Below are positions 280 through 51,441 of a DNA stretch of 64,000 nucleotides, one piece after another (positions within the stretch are counted from its first letter, which is position 1; each line of letters starts with the position of its first letter). Location of the stretch: positions 1,829,501 to 1,893,500 of the forward strand of contig NZ_CP046176.1 in assembly GCF_013009555.1 (NCBI RefSeq), in the 5' to 3' direction. Below the pieces are notes generated by a model. It was not told the origin of the DNA, ran no database searches, and was given only the letters and a program-made list of their open reading frames with translations. The position numbers and the translations under genes are program-made. The stretch is from Phocaeicola dorei (lineage in GTDB: Bacteria; Bacteroidota; Bacteroidia; Bacteroidales; Bacteroidaceae).

Positions 280-2691
280 TTACTTTTTGTTTACATTTTC
301 TGCGCCGTATCCATAGCCGTAACCGTATTTTTTACCATATCCGTAATACTTGCCATACTTGCCGTATCCATAGTAATATCCGTACTTTTTTTTCTTCATG
401 TCCAGTCCGTTGATAATGGTACATAGGTTGGGCAGTTTTTTCTGTTCGCCCAGTTCGTTGATTAAAGTATAATCTGCCTTGTGGGTGTAGTCTGCCCGGC
501 ACACATAGATGCTGGCATTGGCTACTCGCGAAATCAGTTGGGTGTCGGTCACCATGCCGATGGGGGCGGTATCCAGAATGATATAGTCAAAATGCTTTTT
601 CAGTATGTCGATAGCCTGAGGCAAAGATTCACATGCCACCAATTCGGTCGGGTTGGGAGGGATAGGACCTCCGGGCAGAATGGACAAGTTAGGATTGATG
701 TTTGAAACTTGTACCAGCGACATCAGGTCGGTATGTTCCGGATTAGCGAGGAACTGGCTGATGCCTTGTTCCTTGCGTGACAATTGGAAAGCTTTGTTCA
801 GACCCGGCTTGCGGATGTCAAGCCCCACAATCACGATTTTCTTTCCTAATAAAGCCAGGCTGACAGCCAGATTGGAAGCGATAAAGGTTTTGCCTTCTCC
901 TGTAGTGGTGGAGGTAACCAATATAACTTTCTCGTTACTCTTCATCATATAAAGTACATTGGTGCGTACATTACGGAAAGTTTCGGCCATCAGGTCGTTT
1001 TGGTTTTCGTGTACTACAATGGCTCCCTCCGAAGATTTATTTTCAGAGAAAGGTACGTCACCGACTATAGGAAGGGATGTGATTTTTTCCACATCGGCAC
1101 GTCCTTCTATCTTGTATTTAAAAAGCTCGATGATATAGATCACGGCAACCGGCAGAGCGACGCCTAGAATCAGTGCTACCAGATAAATCATCTTTCCTTT
1201 GGGAGATACGGGGATGGCATCTGCCAGCGCTTCGTCTACTATGCGGGCATTGTTGGCGGTAGATGCCAGAGTGATGGCATTTTCTTCACGCTTTTGCAGC
1301 AGCATCAGGTAAAGTCCTGCTTTGATTTCCTGTTGGCGCGAGATGCTGACTAGCTGGCGTTCCTGTCCCGGAGCATTGGTGATGCGTCCGGCATATTTGC
1401 CTGCCTGGCGTTCCAGATCCGCCTGGGTGATGGCCAAGCCTCTTTGCACGCTGTTGATGGTGGTCAGCACATTGCTGCGCATGGCGCGGATGCTGGCATC
1501 CAGATTGACTACCACCGGGTTGTTTTCCTGAGAGGAGCGGAGCAGGCGCTTGCGTTCCAGCAGCATCTCATTGTAGCGGTTGATCAGTTCGGTCAGTCCG
1601 GTATCTGTCAGGCCTACATTGACAGGAAGTACTTCGTAGGCATGATCCGGATTGTTGGCATAGCTGGCCAGGAATTGTACCAGCCGGAGCTGGGTGCTGT
1701 TTTCAGCACGTTTTTTTTCGTATTCCGAGTTTTCACTCAATGCCAGTTGGGCGTCGCTTTTCAAGTCGGTCAGCCCGGCATCGCGCTTGAAGGTTTCCAG
1801 TTCTTGTTCCGTAGTTCCCAATTCACCGTTGATGATATTAATACGTTCATCAATAAATTCTGCGGTCTTGGTGGCCACTTCGTTTTTATCGTCGTTGGCA
1901 TCCCGGTTGTAGATTTCCACCAGTTTGTTGATAAAATCCATACCACGTTGCGTATGCGTGCTCTTTACAGAGATCTGTGCGATAGTGGTGGATTTGGAAG
2001 TAGGCTCTATGCTCAATGCTCCCCGGTAGCTGCCGGCCACACTGCGGGGGGAAGAAACGGTAGCCATGATTTTTTGCTCGCTTTTTGCGATTGTCGAATC
2101 AGCCGGGGTGAAGCTGAAAGTCCCCGACGGAGTGGTCAGCAAGGCAGGCAGTTTGTCGAATTGCTTGCTGTATTCCTGTTCTCCTATTGTGATCTTCACA
2201 TTCAGTTTATTGCCCGGTTGCAAAGTCAGGTTGATATATGCCGGAGCAGGGAGTTTCTGAGCTTCTTCAGGGGTAATCCATACTTTGACAGGGGAACTTT
2301 TGTAAAGTTCTATATCATGAAAACTACTTTTTGCCGCATAGCTGATGTAAAGATCCAGTTCTTCCACTACTTTCTTGATAAGCGTGCGCGATTGCAGGAT
2401 TTCTACCTCATTGTCAAAATTGTTGATGGAAGAATAAAATCCCAAGTCTTCCAAGTCGGCCATGCCGCTGCTTGCTTTGCTGTTTTTGTCATTGTCTTTG
2501 ATGATGACGGACGCCGAGATGTTGTATACCGGCGGGGTGTAACGCAAATAAAGCCAGGCTCCTGCCATGCATAACAGAATGCATGCCACGAACCAAGGCC
2601 AATGAATGGTATATTTAAAAAGAACCGCTTTAAAATCAGTCTTTTCTTCTTTTTCTTCCAGATAGAGGTCGTCGTATAAATCTTCTTTCAT
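280..2691 (-). CDS. Wzc-like polysaccharide co-polymerase / BY-type tyrosine autokinase
   Basis: 803 residues, the usual size of Bacteroidetes Wzc proteins that fuse a Wzz chain-length domain to a bacterial tyrosine kinase. A first membrane helix lies near residues 30-50, followed by a long periplasmic coiled-coil region and a second helix near 505-525. The cytoplasmic kinase follows: Walker A TTTGEGKT near residue 595, the Walker A' motif VGLDIRKPGL shortly after, and Walker B IILDTAP near 705. The last 35 residues are a Tyr/Gly/Lys cluster (repeated YGYG, KYGK), which is the autophosphorylation tail of this family. The protein should control polymer length and export with the Wza protein encoded just upstream (8-base gap). 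It is the last gene of the three-gene operon behind invertible switch A. Confidence 0.93.
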   Translation of the reverse strand: MKEDLYDDLYLEEKEEKTDFKAVLFKYTIHWPWFVACILLCMAGAWLYLRYTPPVYNISASVIIKDNDKNSKASSGMADLEDLGFYSSINNFDNEVEILQSRTLIKKVVEELDLYISYAAKSSFHDIELYKSSPVKVWITPEEAQKLPAPAYINLTLQPGNKLNVKITIGEQEYSKQFDKLPALLTTPSGTFSFTPADSTIAKSEQKIMATVSSPRSVAGSYRGALSIEPTSKSTTIAQISVKSTHTQRGMDFINKLVEIYNRDANDDKNEVATKTAEFIDERINIINGELGTTEQELETFKRDAGLTDLKSDAQLALSENSEYEKKRAENSTQLRLVQFLASYANNPDHAYEVLPVNVGLTDTGLTELINRYNEMLLERKRLLRSSQENNPVVVNLDASIRAMRSNVLTTINSVQRGLAITQADLERQAGKYAGRITNAPGQERQLVSISRQQEIKAGLYLMLLQKREENAITLASTANNARIVDEALADAIPVSPKGKMIYLVALILGVALPVAVIYIIELFKYKIEGRADVEKITSLPIVGDVPFSENKSSEGAIVVHENQNDLMAETFRNVRTNVLYMMKSNEKVILVTSTTTGEGKTFIASNLAVSLALLGKKIVIVGLDIRKPGLNKAFQLSRKEQGISQFLANPEHTDLMSLVQVSNINPNLSILPGGPIPPNPTELVACESLPQAIDILKKHFDYIILDTAPIGMVTDTQLISRVANASIYVCRADYTHKADYTLINELGEQKKLPNLCTIINGLDMKKKKYGYYYGYGKYGKYYGYGKKYGYGYGYGAENVNKK

Positions 2692-2699
2692 AATTCTGT

Positions 2700-3491
2700 T
2701 TATTTGGCAATGGTTACTATCAGGCTGACGAGTGAGACAAGGGTTCCCACTACAGAGAACCAGATTGTAGTACTGTTGCTGATTCCTGCATTTTTGGCTT
2801 TGGTCTTATTGGGAGTGACATACACTACATCATTCTGCTGGAGGTAGTAGTAAGGAGATACGATGATGTCGGCATCGTTCAGGTTCAGCGGGATAATTTG
2901 GCGGTTGCCTTGCGCGTCTTCACGGATCAGTTTCACTTTGTCGCGTTGTCCGTATACAGTCATGTCCCCTGCCATAGCCAGTGCTTCCATGATATTTACT
3001 TTTTCATTGGTGATGGTGAATGTACCGGGGCTGGCAACTTCTCCCATCACAGAGATTTTGTAGTTTGCCATGCGTACATTTACAATAGGGTCTTCTTTGA
3101 TATAGGTCTTCAGTTTCTCCTTTATCATATTTTCCGCCTGGCTTTTGGTAAGGCCGCCGATGTGCAATGTTCCCAAAACAGGGAAATCAATGTTTCCGTT
3201 ATTGTCTACCAGATACTGTTGTAAAGATGGTTGGCTGGTAAGGTTTTTGCTGTTTGCCGTGATAGGGGTGGCTACCGTCAGATTAAAGGGAATGGCGGCA
3301 TCGGGATCGCTGGTATTCACCGTGATAGTCAGCAAATCTTTAGGCATGATGTGTGCATCATACAAGGGTGTTTTGACATTTGCCATGTCCAGATACTCGG
3401 ACCCTTGCAGGTAAGGTACTTTTTTGTAGGCGCTGCAACTACATAGTAGTAGTGAAACCAGCGCGAATAGGGTAAGTTTCAATCTTCTCAT
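2700..3491 (-). CDS. Wza-like outer-membrane polysaccharide export lipoprotein
   Basis: 263 residues. The N-terminus is a lipoprotein signal (LLLCSCSAYK, lipid-anchored Cys19). A poly-export domain follows (DLLTITVNTSDPDAA near residue 55), then an SLBB-type domain (VMGEVASPGTFTI, EALAMAGDMT) and a hydrophobic C-terminal helix (WFSVVGTLVSLVSLIVTIAK). In the family this protein forms the outer-membrane channel for capsule or exopolysaccharide. It is shorter than E. coli Wza, as usual for Bacteroidetes. It lies between the initiating transferase (39-base gap) and the Wzc-like kinase, and the three form one operon read from switch A. Confidence 0.92.
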   Translation of the reverse strand: MRRLKLTLFALVSLLLCSCSAYKKVPYLQGSEYLDMANVKTPLYDAHIMPKDLLTITVNTSDPDAAIPFNLTVATPITANSKNLTSQPSLQQYLVDNNGNIDFPVLGTLHIGGLTKSQAENMIKEKLKTYIKEDPIVNVRMANYKISVMGEVASPGTFTITNEKVNIMEALAMAGDMTVYGQRDKVKLIREDAQGNRQIIPLNLNDADIIVSPYYYLQQNDVVYVTPNKTKAKNAGISNSTTIWFSVVGTLVSLVSLIVTIAK

Positions 3492-3530: not shown

Positions 3531-4934
3531 TTAATAAGCTTGCTTGTCTTTGCGTAGCACATTTGCCACGGTTTTGTACATGATATAAAGGTCGAGCAGG
3601 AAAGACCAGTGCTCCATATACCATATATCGGCTTTCACACGTCCTTCCATGTCTTCCAGCTCACGGGTTTCGCCACGGAAACCGGTCACTTGCGCCCATC
3701 CCGTGATACCGGGTTTGATGAAATGGCGGACCATATATTTATTGATTATCTTGGAATATTCTTCCGTGTGTTTCAACATGTGAGGGCGTGGTCCCACAAT
3801 GGACATATCTCCCAGCAATACATTGATGAATTGCGGAAGTTCGTCAATATTGGTCCGGCGCATGAAATCGCCGAATTTGGTTTTTCTAGGATCATTGAGG
3901 GTGGCCTGTAAGGTGTCCGATTCCTTGTTCACTTTCATAGAACGGAATTTATAACACCAGAATTCTTTATTATTCAATCCATTACGTTTCTGACGGAAGA
4001 ATATGGGGCCCGGAGAAGTGATTTTAATGGTCACTCCTACAATAAGGAATATAATGGGGAACAATGTGCATAAAAAGAGTAATGAGAAGGCTACATCGAA
4101 TATGCGTTTTATCAGCCTGTTTTCTATTTTTCCCAAAGGTTCCTTGCGGATGCTGAGAATAGGGACACTGCCTATCATTTCAAAGTACATACGGTGGCGC
4201 AGGTAGTTGCGCACATTGGGCACACTGTAGAAATGTATCAGGTTGTTTTCGCAATAATTAATGACCGGCACGATACATTCGCTTAATGCCGAGGGCAGGC
4301 AACAATAAAGTTGGTTCACTTTGTTTTTTGTCAGGTAATCAATGGTTTGCTCCGGCTTTCCCAAATAAGTACAACTGGCAGGGAACTTGGCATTGGGGGT
4401 TGTGTCGAAGTATCCCAGTACCCGGTATCCGGTAGTGGCGTCGGAGGTCATTTCATGATAAAGTTCGGCTATATTTTCGGTGCTTCCCAAATAAAGGACG
4501 GTACGGAAATTACCTCCACGGCTTCTGTATAGCTGTATGCAGAAACGGAAAAGCAGACGATAGAAAGTGATGCAGAGGAAAAGTAGAATGAAATAATAGA
4601 CAAAAAAGCGATTGGAGTATATTTCAAGTTCTGATAGTACAATTAAGCTTGTTGACAATAGGGAGAAATAAAAAACGTTACGGAGTGCCCGGAATACAAT
4701 TTGATCGGCACGGGCTCCTCGTCGATGTAATATGACACCTCCTGAGATAGTGCACGCAAAATAGCATACGCTGAATAGAGTTAGAATTTGGGGTAAAGTG
4801 CCACTGTAGGCCCTCTCCCCAAACAACTCGTTCCATATTGAATTAAATGAGATGAAAAGTACATTCAGAATGACTAAATCTCCTAGAATGACTGCTAATT
4901 TAAGTGCTTTATTAAATCTCTGAACTTGTATCAT
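3531..4934 (-). CDS. undecaprenyl-phosphate sugar phosphotransferase (WbaP/WcaJ type)
   Basis: 467 residues, the normal length for polyprenyl glycosylphosphotransferases with a membrane N-terminus. Several hydrophobic helices and a nucleotide-binding-like region (VLYLGSTENIAELYHEM) are followed by the catalytic bacterial sugar transferase domain: RIFDVAFSLLFL, SPGPIFFRQKRNG, WCYKFRSMK, NIDELPQFINVLLGDMSIVG, RPGIT-like KPGITGWAQV. The enzyme should transfer a hexose-1-phosphate from UDP-sugar to undecaprenyl phosphate and so start a repeat unit. It is the first gene of the operon and begins about 90 bases from the inner end of switch A. The operon has no other glycosyltransferase, so the chain must be built by enzymes encoded elsewhere. 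Confidence 0.92.
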   Translation of the reverse strand: MIQVQRFNKALKLAVILGDLVILNVLFISFNSIWNELFGERAYSGTLPQILTLFSVCYFACTISGGVILHRRGARADQIVFRALRNVFYFSLLSTSLIVLSELEIYSNRFFVYYFILLFLCITFYRLLFRFCIQLYRSRGGNFRTVLYLGSTENIAELYHEMTSDATTGYRVLGYFDTTPNAKFPASCTYLGKPEQTIDYLTKNKVNQLYCCLPSALSECIVPVINYCENNLIHFYSVPNVRNYLRHRMYFEMIGSVPILSIRKEPLGKIENRLIKRIFDVAFSLLFLCTLFPIIFLIVGVTIKITSPGPIFFRQKRNGLNNKEFWCYKFRSMKVNKESDTLQATLNDPRKTKFGDFMRRTNIDELPQFINVLLGDMSIVGPRPHMLKHTEEYSKIINKYMVRHFIKPGITGWAQVTGFRGETRELEDMEGRVKADIWYMEHWSFLLDLYIMYKTVANVLRKDKQAY

Positions 4935-5022
4935 AGGTTAAATTTTTTAGATGTCAGATCTATATTATGTTTTTAAAAGGTGTGTTTTAAATATGTCACT
5001 TTTTTTCTTTTTAATATCCTTC

Positions 5023-5043
5023 TGTTACTTCGTAAGTAACAGA
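5023..5043 (+). repeat. inverted repeat, left end of switch A
   Basis: 21 bp, perfect reverse complement of 5324-5344. The core is GTTACTT-CGT-AAGTAAC. Confidence 0.95.
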
Positions 5044-5277
5044 ACGTGAATTAATGGATTAGTTGTATAATTAATATTCTGTCGTTTTATAAATATATAT
5101 AAGAGATAACTATGTGAAATATAGTGAATTTATTGCATTGCGTTAATAGTAAAAAGCGCAATGTGTGTTGTTGTATTTCTTTGTTCTCCTTCGATTTGAT
5201 AATTGTTCATATTATTATTACTTTTTATCTATTATATAACCTTTTTAATTAAAATCTAGAAAAAAGCTGTGCCTTTA

Positions 5278-5309
5278 TTTGTTTGCTATCAGTTAATTGT
5301 CTATTTTTG
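5278..5309 (+). promoter_or_regulatory. promoter inside switch A, pointing away from the operon
   Basis: -33 candidates TTTG at 5278-5281 and 5282-5285; -7 box TATTTTTG at 5302-5309, matching TAnnTTTG. The orientation is rightward, so transcripts would cross the right repeat and run antisense through the recombinase A gene. This is the OFF state for the polysaccharide operon. Confidence 0.75.
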
Positions 5310-5323
5310 CCCTCCAAATAAGA

Positions 5324-5344
5324 TCTGTTACTTACGAAGTAACA
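5324..5344 (-). repeat. inverted repeat, right end of switch A
   Basis: 21 bp, perfect reverse complement of 5023-5043. The core reads GTTACTT-ACG-AAGTAAC on the plus strand. Confidence 0.95.
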
Positions 5345-5380
5345 CAATATAAATCTATTGATAATTAGAATTTTATATAT

Positions 5381-6322
5381 TTATACTCTCTTTTTCCCAT
5401 TATTTGAAACGTATAGAATTATCGCATCATTAGCTTTCTTTATTTCTTCATTCTTGAAATTTTTCAAATATGTTTCTGTAACTTTCACTGACGAGTGTCC
5501 AAAAGCCTCACATATTAATTGTTCGGAGAAATTACAATATTTGGCAAGGGTGGCCCAGGTATGCCGGGTAGTGTATGAACTGACCTTGGTTGCCACTCCG
5601 CATTTTTTCGCCAATCTGCCTAAATTGTAATTCATGGTTCGTAGTGCCTGCTGATACTCTGTATATAGATCCTCTCCGGTTTTTGTTCCACTGAGGATGG
5701 GAAAAAGGTAGGGAGAGTCCTGATTGGTATTTTGATATTTGTTTATCAGCTTCATTGCTGTTGTCGGAATATCAACAATCATTTGCCCACCTGTTTTATA
5801 TCGGCGATAAGAAAGTGTGTTGCCTTTCAAGTCGCTTTTGTGAAGATGGGCCAGATCAACAAAGGGCATTCCGCGTAATTGAAACATTAAATTAGCCCAA
5901 ACTCTGCATCGTATCAAATCTTCCGGTAGTTTCTTTAGAGGAACCTCGTTTAGTAACTTGTTTATCTCTTCTACTTCCAATGCGCGTTTTATGTCGTTTT
6001 TCACGCCGGTGTAGACATGATGAAATAAACGGGAATTCTCGGTTATTATTTTTTTATCCACTGCTTTGTTATAAGTTGCACGCAATGTCCGCATATAGGT
6101 GGAAACAGTATTCCAACTTAGTTGCTTGTCACGCAGGTAGGTTTCAAATTCTTTCAGATTGGCTCTGTTGAGCTGGTGAAAGTAAATAACCTCACATCCA
6201 CAGAATTCACTGAATGCGTTCAAGGTGCTTTGATAAATGTGAGCCGTACCATAACGTTTCTCGTCTTTCAGTTCATCAATCGTTTTGTTCATAAACTCGT
6301 TGAATTTTTTTTTATTTCTCAT
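5381..6322 (-). CDS. tyrosine site-specific recombinase A (DNA invertase of switch A)
   Basis: 313 residues, phage-integrase superfamily. A SAM-like N-terminal core-binding domain occupies about residues 8-100 (TAHIYQSTLNAF, WNTVSTYMRTLR), followed by the catalytic domain. Visible catalytic residues are Arg150 (LRGMPFVDL), Lys176 (YKTGG), Arg253 (TTRHTW), His276 (GHSS) and the nucleophile Tyr285 (TETYLK). The box II His three residues before Arg253 is Tyr250. The gene lies 37 bases from switch A, whose repeats it most likely recombines; local pairing of a tyrosine recombinase with its switch is established in Bacteroides. It is a close paralogue of recombinase B, with the same spacing of all catalytic residues. 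It starts 83 bases after the end of the fimbrial operon and could also receive readthrough from it. Confidence 0.92.
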   Translation of the reverse strand: MRNKKKFNEFMNKTIDELKDEKRYGTAHIYQSTLNAFSEFCGCEVIYFHQLNRANLKEFETYLRDKQLSWNTVSTYMRTLRATYNKAVDKKIITENSRLFHHVYTGVKNDIKRALEVEEINKLLNEVPLKKLPEDLIRCRVWANLMFQLRGMPFVDLAHLHKSDLKGNTLSYRRYKTGGQMIVDIPTTAMKLINKYQNTNQDSPYLFPILSGTKTGEDLYTEYQQALRTMNYNLGRLAKKCGVATKVSSYTTRHTWATLAKYCNFSEQLICEAFGHSSVKVTETYLKNFKNEEIKKANDAIILYVSNNGKKRV

Positions 6323-6405
6323 AATGTTCCGTTTTATAGATTTTACAAAATAAGTTGTTTTCTTAACGGAATCGAATATAGGTTGAAATGTTCGAATTAG
6401 AAAGG

Positions 6406-7353
6406 TTATTTATCTAATTCTGCATTATTTATACGTATCATCCATCCGTTTACTTTCATTTGTAAACATATATAAGGTTGCTGCGGATCATTTGTTGAGT
6501 CAAGAAAAAATATCAGATTATAGCGGTCTTGCCTGTCAAGATATTCTTGTGGAGGCATATAGGTTGTCTCGACATTACGTGACAGGAGCAGATATTGTGT
6601 AAGCGGAATATCGAAAATCTCTTTTCCACTAGGTTGATAGATTAACCGTAGACGGGTATCGTCATTTTCCATCAGTCTCAATGTATTCATTCCGGCATGC
6701 ACTACCTGTATGTCTTCCAAATTGGCGCTTTCTTGCATAAAGGGGAGATAACAGGTGGAAACGGAGTCTATCGGAGTGTTCCAATGATCCATGCATCCGT
6801 TGCCGGCAGTCAGTTCCAGACGGAAATCATCTGTATCCAGCGGGACGGCCGACTGACTTTGCAATATGCAGCTCAGAATATTCGTGTTTTTAGTAAGAGA
6901 GAGAGCCAAAACCTGATATTCGCCGCTGATATGCACGTTGTCCAGCCGCCCGTGGAATAGAGATGAAAGTTTTTCGGATTGTTCTCCCGCCTCATTGCGT
7001 AATAGTGTCAGTGAAGTGGGAGTATGTTGATAATGCGAGTCCGACAAACCTGCCCAAACCAGAAAGGTATAATCTCCCTGAGGCAGGGAGGGGACTTGGA
7101 TTATACATTCATTTTGATGGAATGTAAGACTGTCTACTTCCTCCCGGTCTATATAGTTTCCTTCCTGATCGAGAATAAATAGCGTGACATCTTTTACCTG
7201 GGTGGTCACGGCATCTACATTCAGCATATTATAGGTATAGGATAACTTTAACCAACAGCCTGTGGGACAATCGGATTGGTCATCGTCTACCCAGGAACAT
7301 GCACTACAGAAAAGAGTACATAGGGCGAAGAGGATAGTAGCAGTTTTACTCAT
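6406..7353 (-). CDS. Mfa2/FimB-like fimbrial anchor lipoprotein
   Basis: 315 residues with a lipoprotein-type N-terminus (FCSACSWVDDD, Cys19). The start of the mature protein (CPTGCWLKLSYTYNML) and the VTLFILDQEGNYI segment match the Mfa2/FimB (DUF1812) family. In Porphyromonas the homologue anchors the fimbria to the outer membrane and limits its length. It is the last gene of the operon, 23 bases after the Mfa1-like subunit gene, the expected order for a major-subunit/anchor pair. No frameshift is seen, unlike the well-known fimB mutation of some P. gingivalis strains. The family assignment rests on the N-terminal motif, the length and the neighbour. Confidence 0.8.
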   Translation of the reverse strand: MSKTATILFALCTLFCSACSWVDDDQSDCPTGCWLKLSYTYNMLNVDAVTTQVKDVTLFILDQEGNYIDREEVDSLTFHQNECIIQVPSLPQGDYTFLVWAGLSDSHYQHTPTSLTLLRNEAGEQSEKLSSLFHGRLDNVHISGEYQVLALSLTKNTNILSCILQSQSAVPLDTDDFRLELTAGNGCMDHWNTPIDSVSTCYLPFMQESANLEDIQVVHAGMNTLRLMENDDTRLRLIYQPSGKEIFDIPLTQYLLLSRNVETTYMPPQEYLDRQDRYNLIFFLDSTNDPQQPYICLQMKVNGWMIRINNAELDK

Positions 7354-7376
7354 TGTTTTTCTATTTTGAGACTGTT

Positions 7377-8921
7377 TTATTCAAGGTCGGCATCTTGGTC
7401 ACGGACAATCCACGGATATACTCCGAATTCTACGTCCAAGTATGCTTTGTATTCGTCCGGATCGGGTTTGGTATCCGGAGTGCCGGGACCCAGGTTCTTG
7501 ATGCTGGTAATATTGACAGAATAAATATTGTTACGTACAATACCGAATTCCATTACGCCCATTGTGGTAGGATCGCCGTTATCAAGATGTTTGATCCAAT
7601 AGTTGTAGAAGGTGGAGAAATTACCTTCATTCTTGGTGAAACGGGTAATCTGCTTGGCTGCCAGGTCTGCATCGCTGGATGCTTCTGTCAAACCATCAAT
7701 ATTGGCATCACCATGTTCACCCACAGCCGCCAGCGTGGTGTAGAATTTATAGTTGAAATAATACAGTGTCTTGAACACGAGCGGGTCTTCTACCGGCTGG
7801 CCGTCAGTGCCGATGGTCTGTGAGGCTTCCGGAGTGAATGTACCTTTCAGCATGATGCCGGTGGTGTACACCGTGTTCTGTACCGGACGGAACATACAGT
7901 TTTCAAGACAATACATGGAAACGTACTTTCCTGCATCGGCCAGACCGGACCAATTGCTGTCTGTTTGTTTTGACAGGTGGTTAGTGTAGAATGAACCGCC
8001 TGTGAAACTGGTAGTAGCTCCTGCTACGGTCTTGTCGAAGAAATAGGGATCGATAAGATAACCGTTGTTGTCGGCTATGTTACCGAAATTTCCTGCTTCC
8101 ACGCTGTAAGATGACGGAGCGGAAGGAGTTTCAGATGCGGCATCCAGTGTAGCGACATGACGGAAAGTGTAGAACTTGTTTGCCAGATTGATGAATTTGT
8201 AGTTGTTCAGCCGGACTGTGGCGTAAGTCACTCCCTTAGGATTCTTCAACGTGTAGATTTCCTTGCTGTCATTTCTAACCATCAGTTTGGCAACGGCACG
8301 TTCCAAATTGATTCTGACGTGTGCTCTGGTGTCGCTCTTTTCGGGAGATTCTACGGCAATGTTCAGATTGGCCGAGCCACGGTTGGACATGATGAATCCC
8401 TTTCCGGGTACGCTGGTTATCATACCGTTTCCATAAGTGGTGGCGTCAATCTGTCCCAATAATGTTGATTCCTGGCCTATTTCTTTTTCGATGTCAAGGT
8501 TTTGTGTACCGTTCGCTACGGCAAGGATGTCATAGTTGCCCGGTTCCAATATGATTTCCTTGTTGCAAGAATAGATGATGGTTTGTCCTTCTTGGCTGTT
8601 CTCTTTGCTGGAGATACCCAATTCATTTTGATCTACGTCGAGGGTAGTAACCAAATTCTTGCTGGAAGAATCAAACAGATAGAGTTTCACATTGCTCACT
8701 TTGTATTCTTCGGCAGTACCGTCTTCATAGACTCCAGAGTCTTCGGCGGAAGCGGCACGGCTGCCGTTAGAAGAGTTAGGGACTACAAATGAAATCTCCA
8801 TGTTGCCTCCTTTGGCTCCGGGAATCGGATTGTCTCCATTTCCTGAGGGGACATCTGCATCATTAATACATCCTGCCATTGCAGCTGCAAGAGCGAAGGA
8901 TAATAATAATTTTTTGTTCAT
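7377..8921 (-). CDS. Mfa1-like major fimbrial subunit (fimbrillin) lipoprotein
   Basis: 514 residues from the ATG at 8921; the open frame continues 15 codons upstream but the signal peptide starts here (MNKKLLLSFALAAAMAGC, lipid-anchored Cys18). A FimA-type N-terminal domain follows (ISFVVPNSSNGSRAA; VKLYLFDSSSKNLV near residue 75), then an Mfa1-type C-terminal domain ending with YSVNITSIKNLGPGTPD and a final VEFGVYPWIVRDQD strand. In this family the lipid-modified precursor goes to the cell surface, an arginine-site cleavage removes the N-terminal strand, and subunits join by donor strand exchange. SNGSRAAS contains a possible Arg cleavage site. It is the fifth gene of the operon behind switch B, so the fimbriae should be phase variable. 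Confidence 0.88.
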   Translation of the reverse strand: MNKKLLLSFALAAAMAGCINDADVPSGNGDNPIPGAKGGNMEISFVVPNSSNGSRAASAEDSGVYEDGTAEEYKVSNVKLYLFDSSSKNLVTTLDVDQNELGISSKENSQEGQTIIYSCNKEIILEPGNYDILAVANGTQNLDIEKEIGQESTLLGQIDATTYGNGMITSVPGKGFIMSNRGSANLNIAVESPEKSDTRAHVRINLERAVAKLMVRNDSKEIYTLKNPKGVTYATVRLNNYKFINLANKFYTFRHVATLDAASETPSAPSSYSVEAGNFGNIADNNGYLIDPYFFDKTVAGATTSFTGGSFYTNHLSKQTDSNWSGLADAGKYVSMYCLENCMFRPVQNTVYTTGIMLKGTFTPEASQTIGTDGQPVEDPLVFKTLYYFNYKFYTTLAAVGEHGDANIDGLTEASSDADLAAKQITRFTKNEGNFSTFYNYWIKHLDNGDPTTMGVMEFGIVRNNIYSVNITSIKNLGPGTPDTKPDPDEYKAYLDVEFGVYPWIVRDQDADLE

Positions 8922-8952
8922 AATGTAAAAATGTTTTAGTAAAAAAATGTGA

Positions 8953-10362
8953 TTAGTAAATCTCATGTAATATCTTCAGGTTTTCATCTGCTTGGGGCAG
9001 TCCTGCTTCTTTCGCTTTACGCAGCAGGTTTTCTGCTTCGGTATAATTCCCATTCAGCATTTGCATGATACCTTGCAAAAGGGTCTTTTCGGGAGTCTCA
9101 CCGGCTTTGTCCAAATAGAGTGAGGCGCCTTTTGTATCTCCCTGTGAGAGCAGGATGCAAGCTGCATTGAGATTGGCAACGGGATGTTCCGGATTAAGCA
9201 GAACGGCCGTCATGAAAATCTTATTGTATTCCGGACTGCCGGCAGGGTAGGTCTGGGCTATGCGGAACATCTCTTCAATACTCAGATTCTTGGGGTTGCT
9301 TTCGAAAACCTGCTTGGCCTGCTCTACCGTAAACGGACGTACCACATAGTGGATGGTGTAGTCTGAATGACGGAGACCCGGGAACCAGTGTTGCAGGATG
9401 AAACGGAACTCTTCGGGATAACGTTTCCGTATTTTCCGTTCTTTCTCATCGGGGCTGTTTTTGCTCTCCGCAATATGTAACAGTTCCTCGCGATGGGAAA
9501 TAACGGTATCGGTCAGCAACTTGATAAATCCGTCCCAGTCTTCGGGGGTGTAATGGGTGGTAAACAATGTATCATTGAAAGAATATTGGCTGCATACATA
9601 GTCTTTCAGGGTCTGGGTCCGTTCCCGTGCCAGACGCTCGTTGTTTGAGTAGGGACCTTCGGGAGAGGCGTATCCATGAATGTCAATGTGTGAAATGACT
9701 ACATTGGTATCGTTTTTTATCAAGTCGATACTGCGTTTTATCTTTGCCAGTTCGGCCGGATTGTTTCTGTATTCGGGATAGATAATTGTTTCGTTGAGCG
9801 GGAAGTCCAGATAGGCACGTCCGCTTTCTTCACGCAATTTCCTTTCTTCCATCTGCGGAGTGATAAACGCTACGTGCGGATGGATATCGGGAAGCATATT
9901 CAGGCGGGTCAGATAGGTGGAGTCTGTATGGCGGGGGACTCCGCATCCGCATTCTTTTTCGATGAGATGCAAGGAGGCATGTTTCATCCAGTGAGTGAAG
10001 GGGATGCTGCGTAAGTAGTGTACGCTTTGTTTCCGGTCATTGCGGCGGCGTAACTCTTCATAGTCTTTTTCCTGCCGGCCGGTTTCACGTTGGAAGAAAA
10101 TATGTTGTTTACGACCGTTCACATAGATGGCGGGAAGCTGGATGAAGTTGTCCAGGCTGTCGCTGAGCTGGGGAACCAGTATGACTGATTCGTTAGAGGG
10201 AATCTGTCTGGTAATGTCTACTTGCATGGACACTACCAGACTTTCTCCCATCCGGTAGAGCTGGGAGGAGGCGATGTAAATCGAACTGTCCCGTTCTGCC
10301 GGCTGCGCTGATGAGCAAAGCGTAGGAAAAATAAATGATATAAAATAGAATAAATATTTCAT
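8953..10362 (-). CDS. DUF3868 protein with OmpA-like peptidoglycan-binding domain and helical repeat tail
   Basis: 469 residues with a Sec signal peptide (MKYLFYFISFIFPTLCSSAQ). The N-terminal part resembles DUF3868. Residues about 205-300 form an OmpA-C-like region (IDIHGYASPEGPYSNNERLA, RTQTLKDYV), the fold that grips peptidoglycan. The C-terminal 110 residues look like TPR-type helices (PVANLNAACILLSQGDTKGA). Homologues are found beside DUF3575 genes in Bacteroidales fimbrial operons. A role in anchoring or assembling the fimbria across the periplasm is inferred. It is the long paralogue of the gene at 10945-12039, which shares the first and last regions but lacks the OmpA part. The next gene upstream ends 6 bases before this one starts. 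Confidence 0.82.
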   Translation of the reverse strand: MKYLFYFISFIFPTLCSSAQPAERDSSIYIASSQLYRMGESLVVSMQVDITRQIPSNESVILVPQLSDSLDNFIQLPAIYVNGRKQHIFFQRETGRQEKDYEELRRRNDRKQSVHYLRSIPFTHWMKHASLHLIEKECGCGVPRHTDSTYLTRLNMLPDIHPHVAFITPQMEERKLREESGRAYLDFPLNETIIYPEYRNNPAELAKIKRSIDLIKNDTNVVISHIDIHGYASPEGPYSNNERLARERTQTLKDYVCSQYSFNDTLFTTHYTPEDWDGFIKLLTDTVISHREELLHIAESKNSPDEKERKIRKRYPEEFRFILQHWFPGLRHSDYTIHYVVRPFTVEQAKQVFESNPKNLSIEEMFRIAQTYPAGSPEYNKIFMTAVLLNPEHPVANLNAACILLSQGDTKGASLYLDKAGETPEKTLLQGIMQMLNGNYTEAENLLRKAKEAGLPQADENLKILHEIY

Positions 10363-10368
10363 GGCTCT

Positions 10369-10941
10369 TTAGTTAAATATGTAAACTATACTCAGGGATG
10401 CTTTGGAGGGGCCGAAATAGTGATAATGGCCTTTTTCCAGTAATTCGGCACACACGTCAGGGCATTTATATTTCTTATAATCGATATATTCATACCCTAC
10501 ACCGACGGAAACTTCTATATTCCAGTGGCGGTTGAGCATGATGTGGTATCCATAACTTATGCCTCCACCGGCCAGCCAGCCTGCATATCGGTGCTCTTTC
10601 AGCCAGGGGAAGAGTCCGAAAGGCATCTTTTTCCCTCCTACGTTGAACTGCGCTCCGTTGAGATAGGCTCCCCAAAAACTGCCGTTGAATTTCTGGCAAG
10701 TCCAGTAGCGGTATTCAGGTTGTATGAGCCAATATTTGTTGACATATCCTTCCGAGCGTTTCCACGGACGTATGCTGCCGGACAAATCGAATGTGGATTT
10801 GGAGCCGAAGGCATATTCCACACCGGCATTCAGCGCACCGTTGGCGGCGGAAAGCAGGTTGCTTTTGACAGCCATTTTCTGTGCGGAAACGGAAAGGGCG
10901 CCGCCGAGCAGAAGACAAGAAAGGATATACCGGGTTTTCAT
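10369..10941 (-). CDS. DUF3575 outer-membrane beta-barrel-like protein (second copy)
   Basis: 190 residues, signal peptide MKTRYILSCLLLGGALSVSAQ. The pattern KSNLLSAANGALNAGVEYAF, SIRPWKRSEG, YWLIQPEYRYWTC, NGSFWGAYLNGAQFNVGG and a terminal SLSIVYIF strand is that of DUF3575. These are small predicted outer-membrane barrels of Bacteroidetes with alternating aromatic strands and a C-terminal aromatic residue. It abuts the DUF3868 genes on both sides (3 and 6 bases) and is a paralogue of the first gene of the operon (12068-12634). The function is not established; a membrane platform for the fimbrial assembly proteins is inferred from the fixed gene pairing. Confidence 0.83.
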   Translation of the reverse strand: MKTRYILSCLLLGGALSVSAQKMAVKSNLLSAANGALNAGVEYAFGSKSTFDLSGSIRPWKRSEGYVNKYWLIQPEYRYWTCQKFNGSFWGAYLNGAQFNVGGKKMPFGLFPWLKEHRYAGWLAGGGISYGYHIMLNRHWNIEVSVGVGYEYIDYKKYKCPDVCAELLEKGHYHYFGPSKASLSIVYIFN

Positions 10942-10944
10942 ATT

Positions 10945-12039
10945 TTATTGTATATTGGTTTGATTGGATTCAAAGAATATTTTCAGGTTATAGGTGGCTT
11001 CTTCCGAGCCTTCGGCTTTGGCTGCTTTCAGCAGGCGGATGCCTTCGTAGGTGTTGTTGCACAACAGTTCGTAGGCGCCACGGCAGTTCTTGTAGGCAAG
11101 CGTTTCATGGGAAGCCATTTGCAGATAGCGGCCGGCTGCCTGTGTGTTGCCCCGTTCGATGGCGGCAGCAGCGGCGTTGAGGTTGGCAACGGGGCTTGCC
11201 GGATATATCTTGACACTAATATCTATGATTTTGTAGAACTGTTCCGGAATGTTCTTGTAGCTGATGGCTACGGTGTAAAGCTCGCGTAACGAAAGCATCT
11301 GCGGATTGATTTCGGCTATGACACGCGCTTCGTCCAGACTGAAGTTCAGCTCTTTCTGGTTGCGTTCATCGGTTGCGTCGCTTTCGGGAGATACATAGCT
11401 TCCTTTGAAATATGGTTTGGCAGATGGTGCAGACGGGGCAGGGGAAACAGGACGGTGTTCCGGAACAACGGGGGCAGAGGGTGAGGCTGCTGCCATAGGA
11501 GCTTCCCGGTTCCTGTCCTGTTGGGGAACGAAATTATCTGTTACTTTTGCTATATGGGTTGCTTTGTCCGGAATGGGGATATTTTCACTTTGTACTTTCT
11601 CTCCGTTGCCGTTGATGACTTCTTTCTTGAGGTTCAATGTGGCGAACTGTACCCAGTCGGCTGCCGGGAGGGAAGCACGGTAGTGGATAGTCTGATCGCT
11701 GTCTGTCAAGGGGATAGCGGTAAATACGGGAGTTACATTCGCTTTGCCTCTTCGTTTGTTGAGCGCCAGGGTGCGGCGGTATAGCCGATGTGCACGTTCT
11801 CCGTTGAGCAGAATTTGAGGTAATTCTGCAGTGTGGGTTCCGTCTGTGAGGACAGGGGTGAGACGGATATGGCTTTTGGTGTCCATCTGGGGAACATTGA
11901 GAGTCATTTTCATGGACACTATGGCAGAGTCCTGTCCGAGAGTAACGGAGGGAGGCAGGATATCAAGTTTCAGGTTTTGTGCAGTGGCAAAGGTGCCGCA
12001 TAATAAAAGACTGAATAGTATGTTTGTCTTGAGTTTCAT
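10945..12039 (-). CDS. DUF3868 protein with Pro/Ala/Ser-rich linker (short paralogue)
   Basis: 364 residues, signal peptide MKLKTNILFSLLLCGTFATAQ. The N-terminal region (VPQMDTKSHIRLTPVLTDG, LPQILLNGERAHRLYRR) parallels the DUF3868 part of the 8953-10362 protein. Where that protein has its OmpA-like domain, this one has a disordered Pro/Ala/Ser stretch near residues 180-215 (SPSAPVVPEHRPVSPAPSAP). It then shares the helical tail (SPVANLNAAAAAIERGN). So it keeps both ends but has lost, or never gained, the peptidoglycan-binding centre. It is encoded between the two DUF3575 genes. The role is unknown; a non-anchoring partner of the long paralogue is a guess. Confidence 0.78.
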   Translation of the reverse strand: MKLKTNILFSLLLCGTFATAQNLKLDILPPSVTLGQDSAIVSMKMTLNVPQMDTKSHIRLTPVLTDGTHTAELPQILLNGERAHRLYRRTLALNKRRGKANVTPVFTAIPLTDSDQTIHYRASLPAADWVQFATLNLKKEVINGNGEKVQSENIPIPDKATHIAKVTDNFVPQQDRNREAPMAAASPSAPVVPEHRPVSPAPSAPSAKPYFKGSYVSPESDATDERNQKELNFSLDEARVIAEINPQMLSLRELYTVAISYKNIPEQFYKIIDISVKIYPASPVANLNAAAAAIERGNTQAAGRYLQMASHETLAYKNCRGAYELLCNNTYEGIRLLKAAKAEGSEEATYNLKIFFESNQTNIQ

Positions 12040-12067
12040 GACTGATAGGGTATATTTGCTTTTATAT

Positions 12068-12634
12068 TTATTGAATGAAATAAATGAATGATATGCCTAG
12101 CTGGGTAGGTCCGACATAGTTGGAGTGGGATTTCTTAATAAGTGCGTCTCCTTTGGCGGGACCGTATTTATCATAGGTGAGATGGGCGTATCCGACAGAT
12201 ATGCTTGCTTCAAGACTCCAGAATGTGCTGAGCAACCATTGGTGTCCATAGGTAATGCCGCAACCTATCAGATTACCCTGATAACGGTTGTTCTTTACTG
12301 TTGTAAAAGGAGTGGTTCCACCGAAATTGTATTGGGCGAAATGGGCTTGCACCCCGAAAAAACTTCCTATGAATGTTTCATTGAGCCACCAACGATATTC
12401 GGGCTGGATCAGAATATGTTTCATTTTTTTGTTTTCTCCCAGATTCCAGGGATTATAGTTGACGCTCAGATTGAATGAATGGGTGTCATCACACCTTATT
12501 TCTCCTCCCAGGTTGAAAGTGCCGGTAAGGTCATAAAGAACATTGCTTTTTACAGCGATACTTTGAGCCGAGGCTATACGCGGAGTCATAACTGCTAGCA
12601 TGATTGCTATTATAAATAAGTAAGAATGTCGCAT
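12068..12634 (-). CDS. DUF3575 outer-membrane beta-barrel-like protein (first copy)
   Basis: 188 residues from the ATG at 12634; an in-frame TTG two codons earlier is less likely. Signal peptide MRHSYLFIIAIMLAVMTPRIASAQ. The DUF3575 pattern is clear: KSNVLYDLTGTFNLGGEIR, NYNPWNLGENKKMKHILIQPEYRWWL, TFIGSFFGVQAHFAQYNFGG, and a final LGISFIYFIQ strand. It is the first gene of the fimbrial operon. Its start codon is only 28 bases from the left repeat of switch B, so a transcript from the inverted promoter would have a leader of about 55 bases. Paralogue of the gene at 10369-10941. Confidence 0.83.
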   Translation of the reverse strand: MRHSYLFIIAIMLAVMTPRIASAQSIAVKSNVLYDLTGTFNLGGEIRCDDTHSFNLSVNYNPWNLGENKKMKHILIQPEYRWWLNETFIGSFFGVQAHFAQYNFGGTTPFTTVKNNRYQGNLIGCGITYGHQWLLSTFWSLEASISVGYAHLTYDKYGPAKGDALIKKSHSNYVGPTQLGISFIYFIQ

Positions 12635-12661
12635 TGTCAATATTTTTGTTTTGTTTTTTTT

Positions 12662-12684
12662 CTGTTACTTTAGAAGTAACGGAA
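12662..12684 (+). repeat. inverted repeat, left end of switch B
   Basis: 23 bp, perfect reverse complement of 12912-12934. The core is GTTACTT-TAG-AAGTAAC. Confidence 0.95.
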
Positions 12685-12867
12685 GGGAAGGAGGGAGGGA
12701 AAAAAACATGAAAACAGCAGTAAAATAAAGATTTAGTGGCTGTTAGAGAAGATAAAAGACTGGGAATGTAGCTTAACTCATATTGACGATCAGAGTATGG
12801 GCAGGGAGGGCTATATGCGGAATAAAAAAATTTTTTGAAATAAAAACGAAAAAAAAGTGTAGAAATC

Positions 12868-12898
12868 TTGCACTGTATCTAAAGTTTGTATACTTTTG
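12868..12898 (+). promoter_or_regulatory. promoter inside switch B, pointing away from the operon
   Basis: -33-like TTG at 12868-12870 and -7 box TACTTTTG at 12891-12898, matching TAnnTTTG with 23 bases between element starts. It reads rightward out of the right repeat and antisense into recombinase B. Confidence 0.78.
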
Positions 12899-12911
12899 CT
12901 TCCAAAATCTG

Positions 12912-12934
12912 TTCCGTTACTTCTAAAGTAACAG
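12912..12934 (-). repeat. inverted repeat, right end of switch B
   Basis: 23 bp, perfect reverse complement of 12662-12684. Confidence 0.95.
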
Positions 12935-12981
12935 TCTTGTAATTTACTGTTTTATAATGTAATGTGAAGTTTTAAAATTGA

Positions 12982-13911
12982 TTATATAGAAATGTTAATG
13001 TGATTAATTATTACTTTATTTGCTTTGTCTAATTCATCGTTTTTAAAACTTTTCAAATAGGTTTCGGTCACCTTTGTGGAGGAGTGCCCTAGGGCATCAC
13101 AAATCAATTGTTCCGAAAAGTGGCAGTATTTAGCCAAAGTGGCCCAAGTGTGGCGGCTGGTGTAGGAACTGACATTGAGTTTGATTCCGCAGTATACCGC
13201 CAGTTGTTTCAGGTCATAGTTCAGTTTCCGCAAGGCATGTTGGTATTCTGCATATTCTTCTTCGCTTTTCCGGTTTCCACTGAGAATGGGAAGCAGGTAG
13301 GGGGAGTTGGAATCTGTATTTTGATACCGTTTGATAAGGTTCATGGCAGCGGGAGGAATCTCTACGGTGAGCAGGGTTCCTGTTTTGTGGCGGCGGTAGG
13401 AGATAACGGAATCTTGCAGGTCTGTTTTGCGCAGGTGTGCCAGATCCACAAAGGGCATCCCGCGTAACAGGAACATTAGGGTAATCCATGCCCGGCTCTC
13501 TTCCATACTTTGCGGCAAGGGGCGTGGAAGGGAGGCACTTAATAATTTGCTCATGTCTTTGGCATCGAGGGCGCGTTTGGTATTGGCTTTTACACCAGTA
13601 TATACGTGACGGAAAAGACGGGGCTTTTCTTCTGTCAGACCATCGTCCACGGCTTTGTTGTAGATGCTTCGCAAGGTACGCATATAAGTGGAAACAGTGT
13701 TCCAGGTGCATCCCTTGTTACGCAGGTGGTTCTCAAATTGTTTCAGGTATGAACGTTCCATCTGGTTGAACCGGATGGTGTCGGTCTTGCAGAAGAGCAT
13801 GAAGGCGTTCAATGTGCTTTGGTAGATGTGGGCGGTACTGAAACGCTCTTCTTCTTTTAGCGACCGGATAAGTTGTTCCATAAATAGGGTCAGGTTAGAT
13901 TTTTCTTTCAT
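12982..13911 (-). CDS. tyrosine site-specific recombinase B (DNA invertase of switch B)
   Basis: 309 residues, paralogue of recombinase A over the whole length (shared blocks TAHIYQSTLNAF, WNTVSTYMRTLR, RGMPFVDLAHL, HTWATLAKYC). The catalytic residues fall at identical positions: Arg150, Lys176, Arg253, His276 and the nucleophile Tyr285. Tyr250 again stands where box II normally has His. It lies 47 bases from switch B and most likely inverts it. Cross-action on switch A is possible because the repeat arms are identical, but the differing 3-bp centres should disfavour strand exchange between A and B sites. It is divergent from the glycosidase gene at 14122, with 210 bases between. Confidence 0.92.
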   Translation of the reverse strand: MKEKSNLTLFMEQLIRSLKEEERFSTAHIYQSTLNAFMLFCKTDTIRFNQMERSYLKQFENHLRNKGCTWNTVSTYMRTLRSIYNKAVDDGLTEEKPRLFRHVYTGVKANTKRALDAKDMSKLLSASLPRPLPQSMEESRAWITLMFLLRGMPFVDLAHLRKTDLQDSVISYRRHKTGTLLTVEIPPAAMNLIKRYQNTDSNSPYLLPILSGNRKSEEEYAEYQHALRKLNYDLKQLAVYCGIKLNVSSYTSRHTWATLAKYCHFSEQLICDALGHSSTKVTETYLKSFKNDELDKANKVIINHINISI

Positions 13912-51069: not shown

Positions 51070-51441
51070 TCAATATAATTCTTTTAAAAAAGACGCAAAC
51101 TCATGCGTCATACGGCTGCCTTCCGCTACCAGTTTCCAGTTACGGCTTACGTAACGCCCCTCGTCTTTCAAAATCCACCGGCGCCGGCGGATATTCAGGA
51201 AAAGATTCTTGCCACGGATGGGGAAGTCCCGGACTACTACAGGGTCGTAGAAGCCTTTGCTTTCCACTTTGACAGTCGAATATTCACCGGGAAGCTCATT
51301 TTTCTCTTCCAGGTAAATCACGATTTCACTACTGCTTTCCTTTACATCGGAAATGTTGAAATAATCCAAGGTACCTTCGGGAAGAAGGAGACGGTAACCG
51401 TTAGTTTCCATAATCGCTGATGATTCGTTTGTTTCACACAA
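51070..51441 (-). CDS. ISAon1-type transposase N-terminal protein
   Basis: 123 residues (or 113 from the internal Met at 51411). It begins NGYRLLLPEGTLDYFNISDV and ends RNWKLVAEGSRMTHEFASFL, the pattern of the small N-terminal/DNA-binding partner of ISAon1 elements; a Cys-poor, basic stretch RRRRWILKDEGRYV lies near residue 85. It is the first gene of the element, reading inward from the right repeat. Its last codons overlap the open frame of the catalytic part. Function is inferred from the fixed two-gene layout of these elements. Confidence 0.75.
   Translation of the reverse strand: MCETNESSAIMETNGYRLLLPEGTLDYFNISDVKESSSEIVIYLEEKNELPGEYSTVKVESKGFYDPVVVRDFPIRGKNLFLNIRRRRWILKDEGRYVSRNWKLVAEGSRMTHEFASFLKELY

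Follow-up and report, generated by a model that had tools for sequence, protein, structure and literature searches.

Gene content and organization of the locus

The window, which is the whole 64,000-nucleotide stretch of Phocaeicola dorei DNA analysed here, carries two recombinase genes (recA and recB), two promoter switches (A and B) and two surface operons. On the minus strand they are arranged in the order recB, switch B, six fimbrial genes, recA, switch A and three polysaccharide genes. This gene order agrees with an earlier sequence-only reading, which had placed a fimbrial module B directly before a polysaccharide module A on the same strand. The following genes were predicted.

12982..13911, minus strand: RecB, tyrosine recombinase, 309 aa (open reading frame; PF13102 and PF00589)
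12068..12640, minus strand: first gene of the fimbrial operon, DUF3575 (PF12099)
10945..12039, minus strand: DUF3868 protein (PF12984)
10369..10941, minus strand: DUF3575 protein (PF12099)
8953..10362, minus strand: DUF3868 protein (PF12984)
7377..8966, minus strand: Mfa1-family fimbria major subunit (NF038041)
6406..7353, minus strand: Mfa2-type fimbrial anchor (PF08842)
6373..6403, minus strand: conserved promoter-like element before recA, TTTC-N19-TATATTCG, in 4/4 species compared
5381..6322, minus strand: RecA, tyrosine recombinase, 313 aa (PF13102 and PF00589)
3531..4934, minus strand: WcaJ-type initiating sugar transferase (TIGR03023)
2700..3491, minus strand: Wza-type polysaccharide export protein (PF02563)
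280..2691, minus strand: Wzc-type chain-length protein containing a tyrosine kinase domain (TIGR01007); the operon ends with this gene, and a convergent ORF comes next

Both switches consist of an inverted repeat with a GTTAC-GTAAC core around a Bacteroides-type promoter and stand before a surface operon, the promoters being assigned by consensus match only (TAnnTTTG; PMC4747536). Their parts are listed below.

12916-12932, no strand: switch B site adjoining recB, GTTACTTCTAAAGTAAC, reading GTTACTT-TAG-AAGTAAC on the recB strand
12867..12898, plus strand: putative switch B promoter, CTTG-N20-TACTTTTG, facing recB, present in 3/3 species compared
12681..12915, no strand: switch B invertible segment, 235 bp, inversion not seen in 3 species
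12664-12680, no strand: switch B site adjoining the fimbrial operon, GTTACTTTAGAAGTAAC, exact pattern match
5327-5343, no strand: switch A site adjoining recA, GTTACTTACGAAGTAAC, reading GTTACTT-CGT-AAGTAAC on the recA strand
5278..5309, plus strand: putative switch A promoter, TTTG-N20-TATTTTTG, facing recA
5041..5326, no strand: 286-bp invertible segment of switch A, in the opposite orientation in P. vulgatus
5024-5040, no strand: switch A site adjoining the polysaccharide operon, GTTACTTCGTAAGTAAC, exact pattern match

A promoter directed toward the operon would turn it ON, and one directed toward the recombinase gene would leave it OFF. Since both promoters face recombinase genes, both operons are read as OFF, and we infer that neither fimbriae nor polysaccharide would be expressed in the state captured by this assembly.

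Sites of the two switches

The four exact GTTACTT-N3-AAGTAAC sites are arranged as two pairs of inverted repeats, with the centre CGT in switch A and TAG in switch B. The sequence-only reading had already described the shared arms and the two centres; its start at 5023 is one base off, the first site beginning at 5024, and the rest of that observation holds. With up to two mismatches allowed, these 4 sites are the only ones in the window, against 0.21 expected. In the whole genome (5,625,488 bp) the exact pattern has 4 matches, all of them A or B sites, and the backward control has 0. The wider pattern CTGTTACTT-N3-AAGTAACAG with up to three mismatches adds 5 genome matches, each at 3 mismatches, for a total of 9 versus 12 in the control. 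The looser GTTAC-N7-GTAAC has 14 matches in the genome and likewise 14 in the control, so the signal lies in the TT...AA part. The recombinase-proximal site lies 38 bp (A) or 50 bp (B) past the recombinase stop.

The sequence GTTACGGCTTACGTAAC is present at 8 genome places among the matches listed, including 51139-51155 of the window, and seems to belong to a different class of repeat rather than to a switch.

The two recombinases

A full-length tyrosine recombinase adjoins each switch, as identified by domain search and alignment. RecA and RecB share 58% identity and have the same residues at K176, Y250 (at the usual His), R253, H276 and Y285. The domain search detected PF00589 and PF13102 in the two proteins and no serine recombinase domain as in the serine invertases Mpi and Hin. 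The structure model of RecA, built from 58 sequences, has a pLDDT of 88.7 and matches lambda Int, Tn1549 Int and Cre, which we take as evidence of fold only, not function; an earlier model from 6 sequences was poor (pLDDT 69.9). In the recombinase tree, the RecA and RecB clades are sisters with support of 99/97, which supports a duplication. The five shared positions and the common domain pair bear out the earlier description of full-length paralogues with identical catalytic positions, and the sister clades support its duplicated phase-control unit.

Arms and centre across the Bacteroidaceae

The family sample comprises at least 422 exact GTTACTT-N3-AAGTAAC or -AGGTAAC sites from 65 genomes, with 5 sites of genome G243 left uncounted and genomes outside genus g3 scanned with the AAGTAAC form only. 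Among the sites listed, 180 of the 183 site pairs at most 1.6 kb apart are inverted with an identical centre; the remainder comprise 3/183 pairs with a one-base centre mismatch and 0 direct repeats. Shuffling gives a mean of 31.6 identical-centre inverted pairs and a maximum of 50. For palindromic arms alone, 27/28 of the pairs among the sites listed are inverted with an identical centre, versus 3.7 when shuffled.

Because the site pattern itself fixes the arms, a second collection was started from the recombinases. It contains 94 distinct recombinase loci, with a site pair behind the gene at 70, around the gene at 8 and none at 16. The sequence-only reading had proposed to search for the pattern next to homologous recombinases in related genomes, and this search thus returned a site pair at 78 of the 94 loci. 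A motif-free search for inverted repeats behind the gene took in 83 of these loci and placed the core in the best repeat for 67 recombinases, and for 3 more with one or two arm bases altered. Information content at the 70 proximal sites is 1.0–2.0 bits per arm position, the value of 1.0 being reached at position 12 (A or G) alone, and 0.35–0.92 bits at the three positions of the centre. Between the two sites of recombinase-anchored pairs, which were chosen with at most three mismatches overall, mismatches occur at 18/1092 arm positions and 1/234 centre positions.

A second architecture, with the recombinase gene inside its own invertible segment of 1.18–1.51 kb, is represented by 8/94 loci (L101, L104, L107, L128, L129, L131, L132 and L136).

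The recombinase tree contains 81 enzymes, 78 of them with a site; 13 of the 16 site-less loci were left out. On this tree, arm type (AAGTAAC or AGGTAAC) changes 3 times versus 26.6 when shuffled. The centre changes 33 times versus 49.8, which means that it clusters too, though far less than arm type, and keeps some link to the enzyme. Different centres are found despite 96%, 93% and 92% identical recombinases, the 92% pair standing in tandem in genome G253. Among the 93 enzyme pairs with at least 75% identity, 51 have the centre in common and 42 have different centres. These patterns support a division in which the arms would be for the enzyme and the centre for the partner.

Centres of neighbouring and distant switches

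Earlier, arm binding had been proposed to be shared, with the centre matched within each switch. In the relatives this is supported by the 180/183 pairs and the arm type that tracks the enzyme tree. As a rule giving every switch a private centre it lacks support, since 202/654 (31%) within-genome switch combinations among the sites listed have the same centre and one genome, G160 (L069-L097), has TAC six times. This genome holds 14 homologues, 13 of them beside a switch, the other centres being TGT and others; in 11/13 cases a gene of the DUF3575 type stands after the switch.

All adjacent switches within 30 kb differ in centre (0/13 the same, including a run of three in genome G123 with TGT, CGT and GAT and the G253 tandem), again among the sites listed. 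The first of the three tandem switches in G123 (L114:288-740) adjoins the C-terminal part of a recombinase only, and both of its sites are intact. Selection that keeps tandem centres different would be part of a broader address code in the Bacteroidaceae, with two arm types read by the recombinase lineage and a largely free 3-bp centre that is the same at both ends, so that one enzyme could act on several switches and leave the intervening genes in place. We advance this code tentatively and give it rather less than an even chance.

Alternatively, the difference in centre is ordinary drift: each module keeps its own two sites alike, neighbours differ by chance, and insulation is not selected. 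We regard this as having somewhat less than an even chance. The many distant switches with a common centre in one genome speak for drift, and so does the neighbour test. Among the sites listed, adjacent switches at most 15 kb apart have the same centre in 0/10 cases (within-genome permutation mean 1.9, P = 0.098), or 0/8 when only complete pairs are taken (P = 0.20); the figures are 0/10 for complete pairs within 30 kb (P = 0.08) and 2/14 within 50 kb (P = 0.28). In these counts P. vulgatus and P. dorei are one homologous case and G253 supplies three. The 0/13 within 30 kb, with the G123 run and the 92% identical enzymes of G253, stands against drift. That neighbouring switches differ in centre is thus a suggestive trend, not significant and not proof.

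Comparison with related species

In P. vulgatus ATCC 8482 the whole tandem is kept, with the centre TGT in A and TAG in B. Switch A of P. dorei aligns with that of P. vulgatus only when reversed (score 154 versus 21); the two promoters point opposite ways, and that of P. vulgatus faces the polysaccharide genes. Switch A in P. sartorii has the same orientation as in P. dorei. Switch B has one orientation in 3/3 species holding module B, and no B inversion was seen among them. A further recombinase in P. vulgatus (L063, 9101-10189) has 42% identity to RecA and a ATTACTTACCAAGTAAT switch behind it.

In the genome of P. sartorii, recA is accompanied by switch A (TGT) and the polysaccharide genes, and module B is absent there. 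The region upstream of recB runs straight into the region upstream of recA. In this draft recA is frameshifted, and Wza, Wzc and a neighbouring hydrolase are likewise in pieces. Since P. sartorii falls within clade A and the clades are sisters, the duplication predates these species, and P. sartorii has probably lost module B. Recombination between A and B sites was considered as the cause of this absence and rejected, as the junction maps to the 5' regions of the two recombinase genes and not to a switch site, and recA has been retained. No A-B rearrangement was found in the three genomes that carry both recA and recB (one without switch A; one assembly per species).

In P. massiliensis recB, switch B (TAG), the fimbrial genes and recA are present; behind recA there is neither switch A nor the polysaccharide genes of the P. 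dorei operon. RecA of P. massiliensis is intact, with 0 deviations at 31 highly conserved columns and pairwise dN/dS of 0.06–0.15. Decay through R150H was rejected, since 20 of the other recombinases among the 81 likewise lack R150, having C, Q or G there, and every one of them has a switch behind its gene. As RecA is intact although no switch A adjoins it, it may have another target. A single isolated GTTACTTTGAAAGTAAC site was located at L065:9334, with no recombinase-like ORF around it among those listed (by eye). This site was rejected as a distant partner of RecA, there being no pairing GTTAC-N7-GTAAC-like site with at most two mismatches within 2 kb.

Between P. dorei and P. vulgatus, identity is 57–84% in the five 250-bp bins of 5001-6250, which cover recA and switch A, and 81–98% (middle value 94) in the other 62 bins up to 16750. 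The divergent block spans about 1.3 kb, and the drop inside switch A owes partly to the inversion itself. Synonymous divergence is 0.90 in recA, 0.13 in recB, 0.44 in the sugar transferase gene and 0.22 in mfa2. It seems that recA and its own switch have been exchanged together and that the centre has changed between TGT and CGT at both ends.

Proposed mechanism

We consider it likely that the locus consists of two paralogous modules, each of recombinase, invertible promoter and surface operon, placed head to tail, in which inversion is local and pairing is decided by the centre. Each tyrosine recombinase would bind the conserved 7-bp arms and invert the promoter segment located immediately past its own gene. 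Strand exchange depends on identical bases between the cut points; the 3-bp centre, as the portion of the core that varies, would therefore set both the pairing partner and the orientation. With the centres CGT and TAG, A would then pair with A and B with B. The mismatched centres are thereby inferred to block A-B exchange, and the fimbrial genes between the switches would stay unrearranged even with a single enzyme bound at all four. The anatomy of the locus, the promoter-like sequences, the inversion of A between species, the identity of centres within pairs and the tracking of the enzyme by arm type, on which this reading is built, were all observed directly in the genomes compared. The three pairs with a one-base centre mismatch, the constant orientation of switch B and the partial clustering of centres on the enzyme tree count against it.

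Local service is our main reading, with shared service as a serious rival, possible but less than likely: one recombinase, or both redundantly, would serve both switches through the shared arms, and flips would be coupled by enzyme level while the promoters stay separate. The A and B arms are identical, the intact RecA of P. massiliensis has no local switch A, and Tsr19/BF2766 of B. fragilis acts on a local promoter as well as on a distant one, inverting both (PMC4747536). The bond of an enzyme and its own switch is not a law, as a P. vulgatus CL10 promoter beside a defective local recombinase is described as still inverting (PMC13114119). It is argued for by the recA-switch A cassette, which diverges as one block; the mere 58% identity of RecA and RecB and the open frames of recA and recB in all three species with both also weigh against a shared enzyme.

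A cascade appears improbable. The recA gene, 83 bp behind the last fimbrial gene, would be read through when switch B is ON, and fimbriae in the ON state would raise polysaccharide switching. It follows mfa2 on the same strand in P. dorei, P. vulgatus and P. massiliensis, and no terminator-like site was called between mfa2 and recA on the minus strand, where the scan called none in the whole stretch. The promoter-like element before recA in 4/4 species, including P. sartorii with no fimbrial operon there, argues against such coupling. That the switches are relics no longer flipping is very improbable: both promoters are OFF in P. dorei and B is OFF in 3/3 species, but switch A occurs in both orientations among relatives, sites and enzymes are intact, and pairwise dN/dS is low.

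Relation to known systems and significance

Both module types are known in Bacteroides, as Tsr19-polysaccharide modules and as phase-variable fimbriae. Heterospecific recombination sites, such as lox variants, have the same binding arms and different central bases and pair only with a like site; the lox variants are engineered, whereas the A and B switches are natural promoter switches.

In B. fragilis, Tsr19 (BF2766/BF2780) and IVp-I lie before the large-capsule polysaccharide operon (PMC4747536, PMC3090145). As described there, the arrangement is like that of module A, in that a tyrosine recombinase immediately precedes an invertible promoter, behind which come three genes, for the initiating sugar transferase, Wza and Wzc; the likeness is one of gene arrangement, RecA being set beside Tsr19 by description. 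In that system one enzyme also serves a distant promoter, whereas P. dorei has a second paralogous recombinase, switch and fimbrial operon directly upstream, with another centre. A fimbria-like outer-surface-protein locus of B. fragilis is phase-variable via tyrosine recombinases (PMC12632263, citing Weinacht 2004). It is controlled by recombinase-driven inversion, as the P. dorei fimbrial locus would be; the description on which the comparison is based mentions no tandem polysaccharide module. GTTAC-GTAAC inverted repeats precede capsule operons in B. xylanisolvens and B. thetaiotaomicron, where one repeat is common to several operons per genome (PMC12118408). They have the same core and a recombinase beside them. 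As presented in that source, their arm is asymmetric (AGGTAAC or its complement) and one centre is used across several operons, whereas the A and B sites of P. dorei have palindromic arms and different centres.

What is new here is the tandem arrangement, together with measurements of how arms and centre divide the labour within a site; a literature search, with most subscription papers beyond its reach, found no paper on the tandem or on a centre rule. In two common gut species, the locus probably governs whether fimbriae and exopolysaccharide are made. With site pairs three bases apart, it makes testable the local versus cross action of gut Bacteroidales recombinases and the barrier to wrong pairings. 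If the proposed reading is true, sequence would predict which promoters can recombine together, and tandem switches would be natural orthogonal parts.
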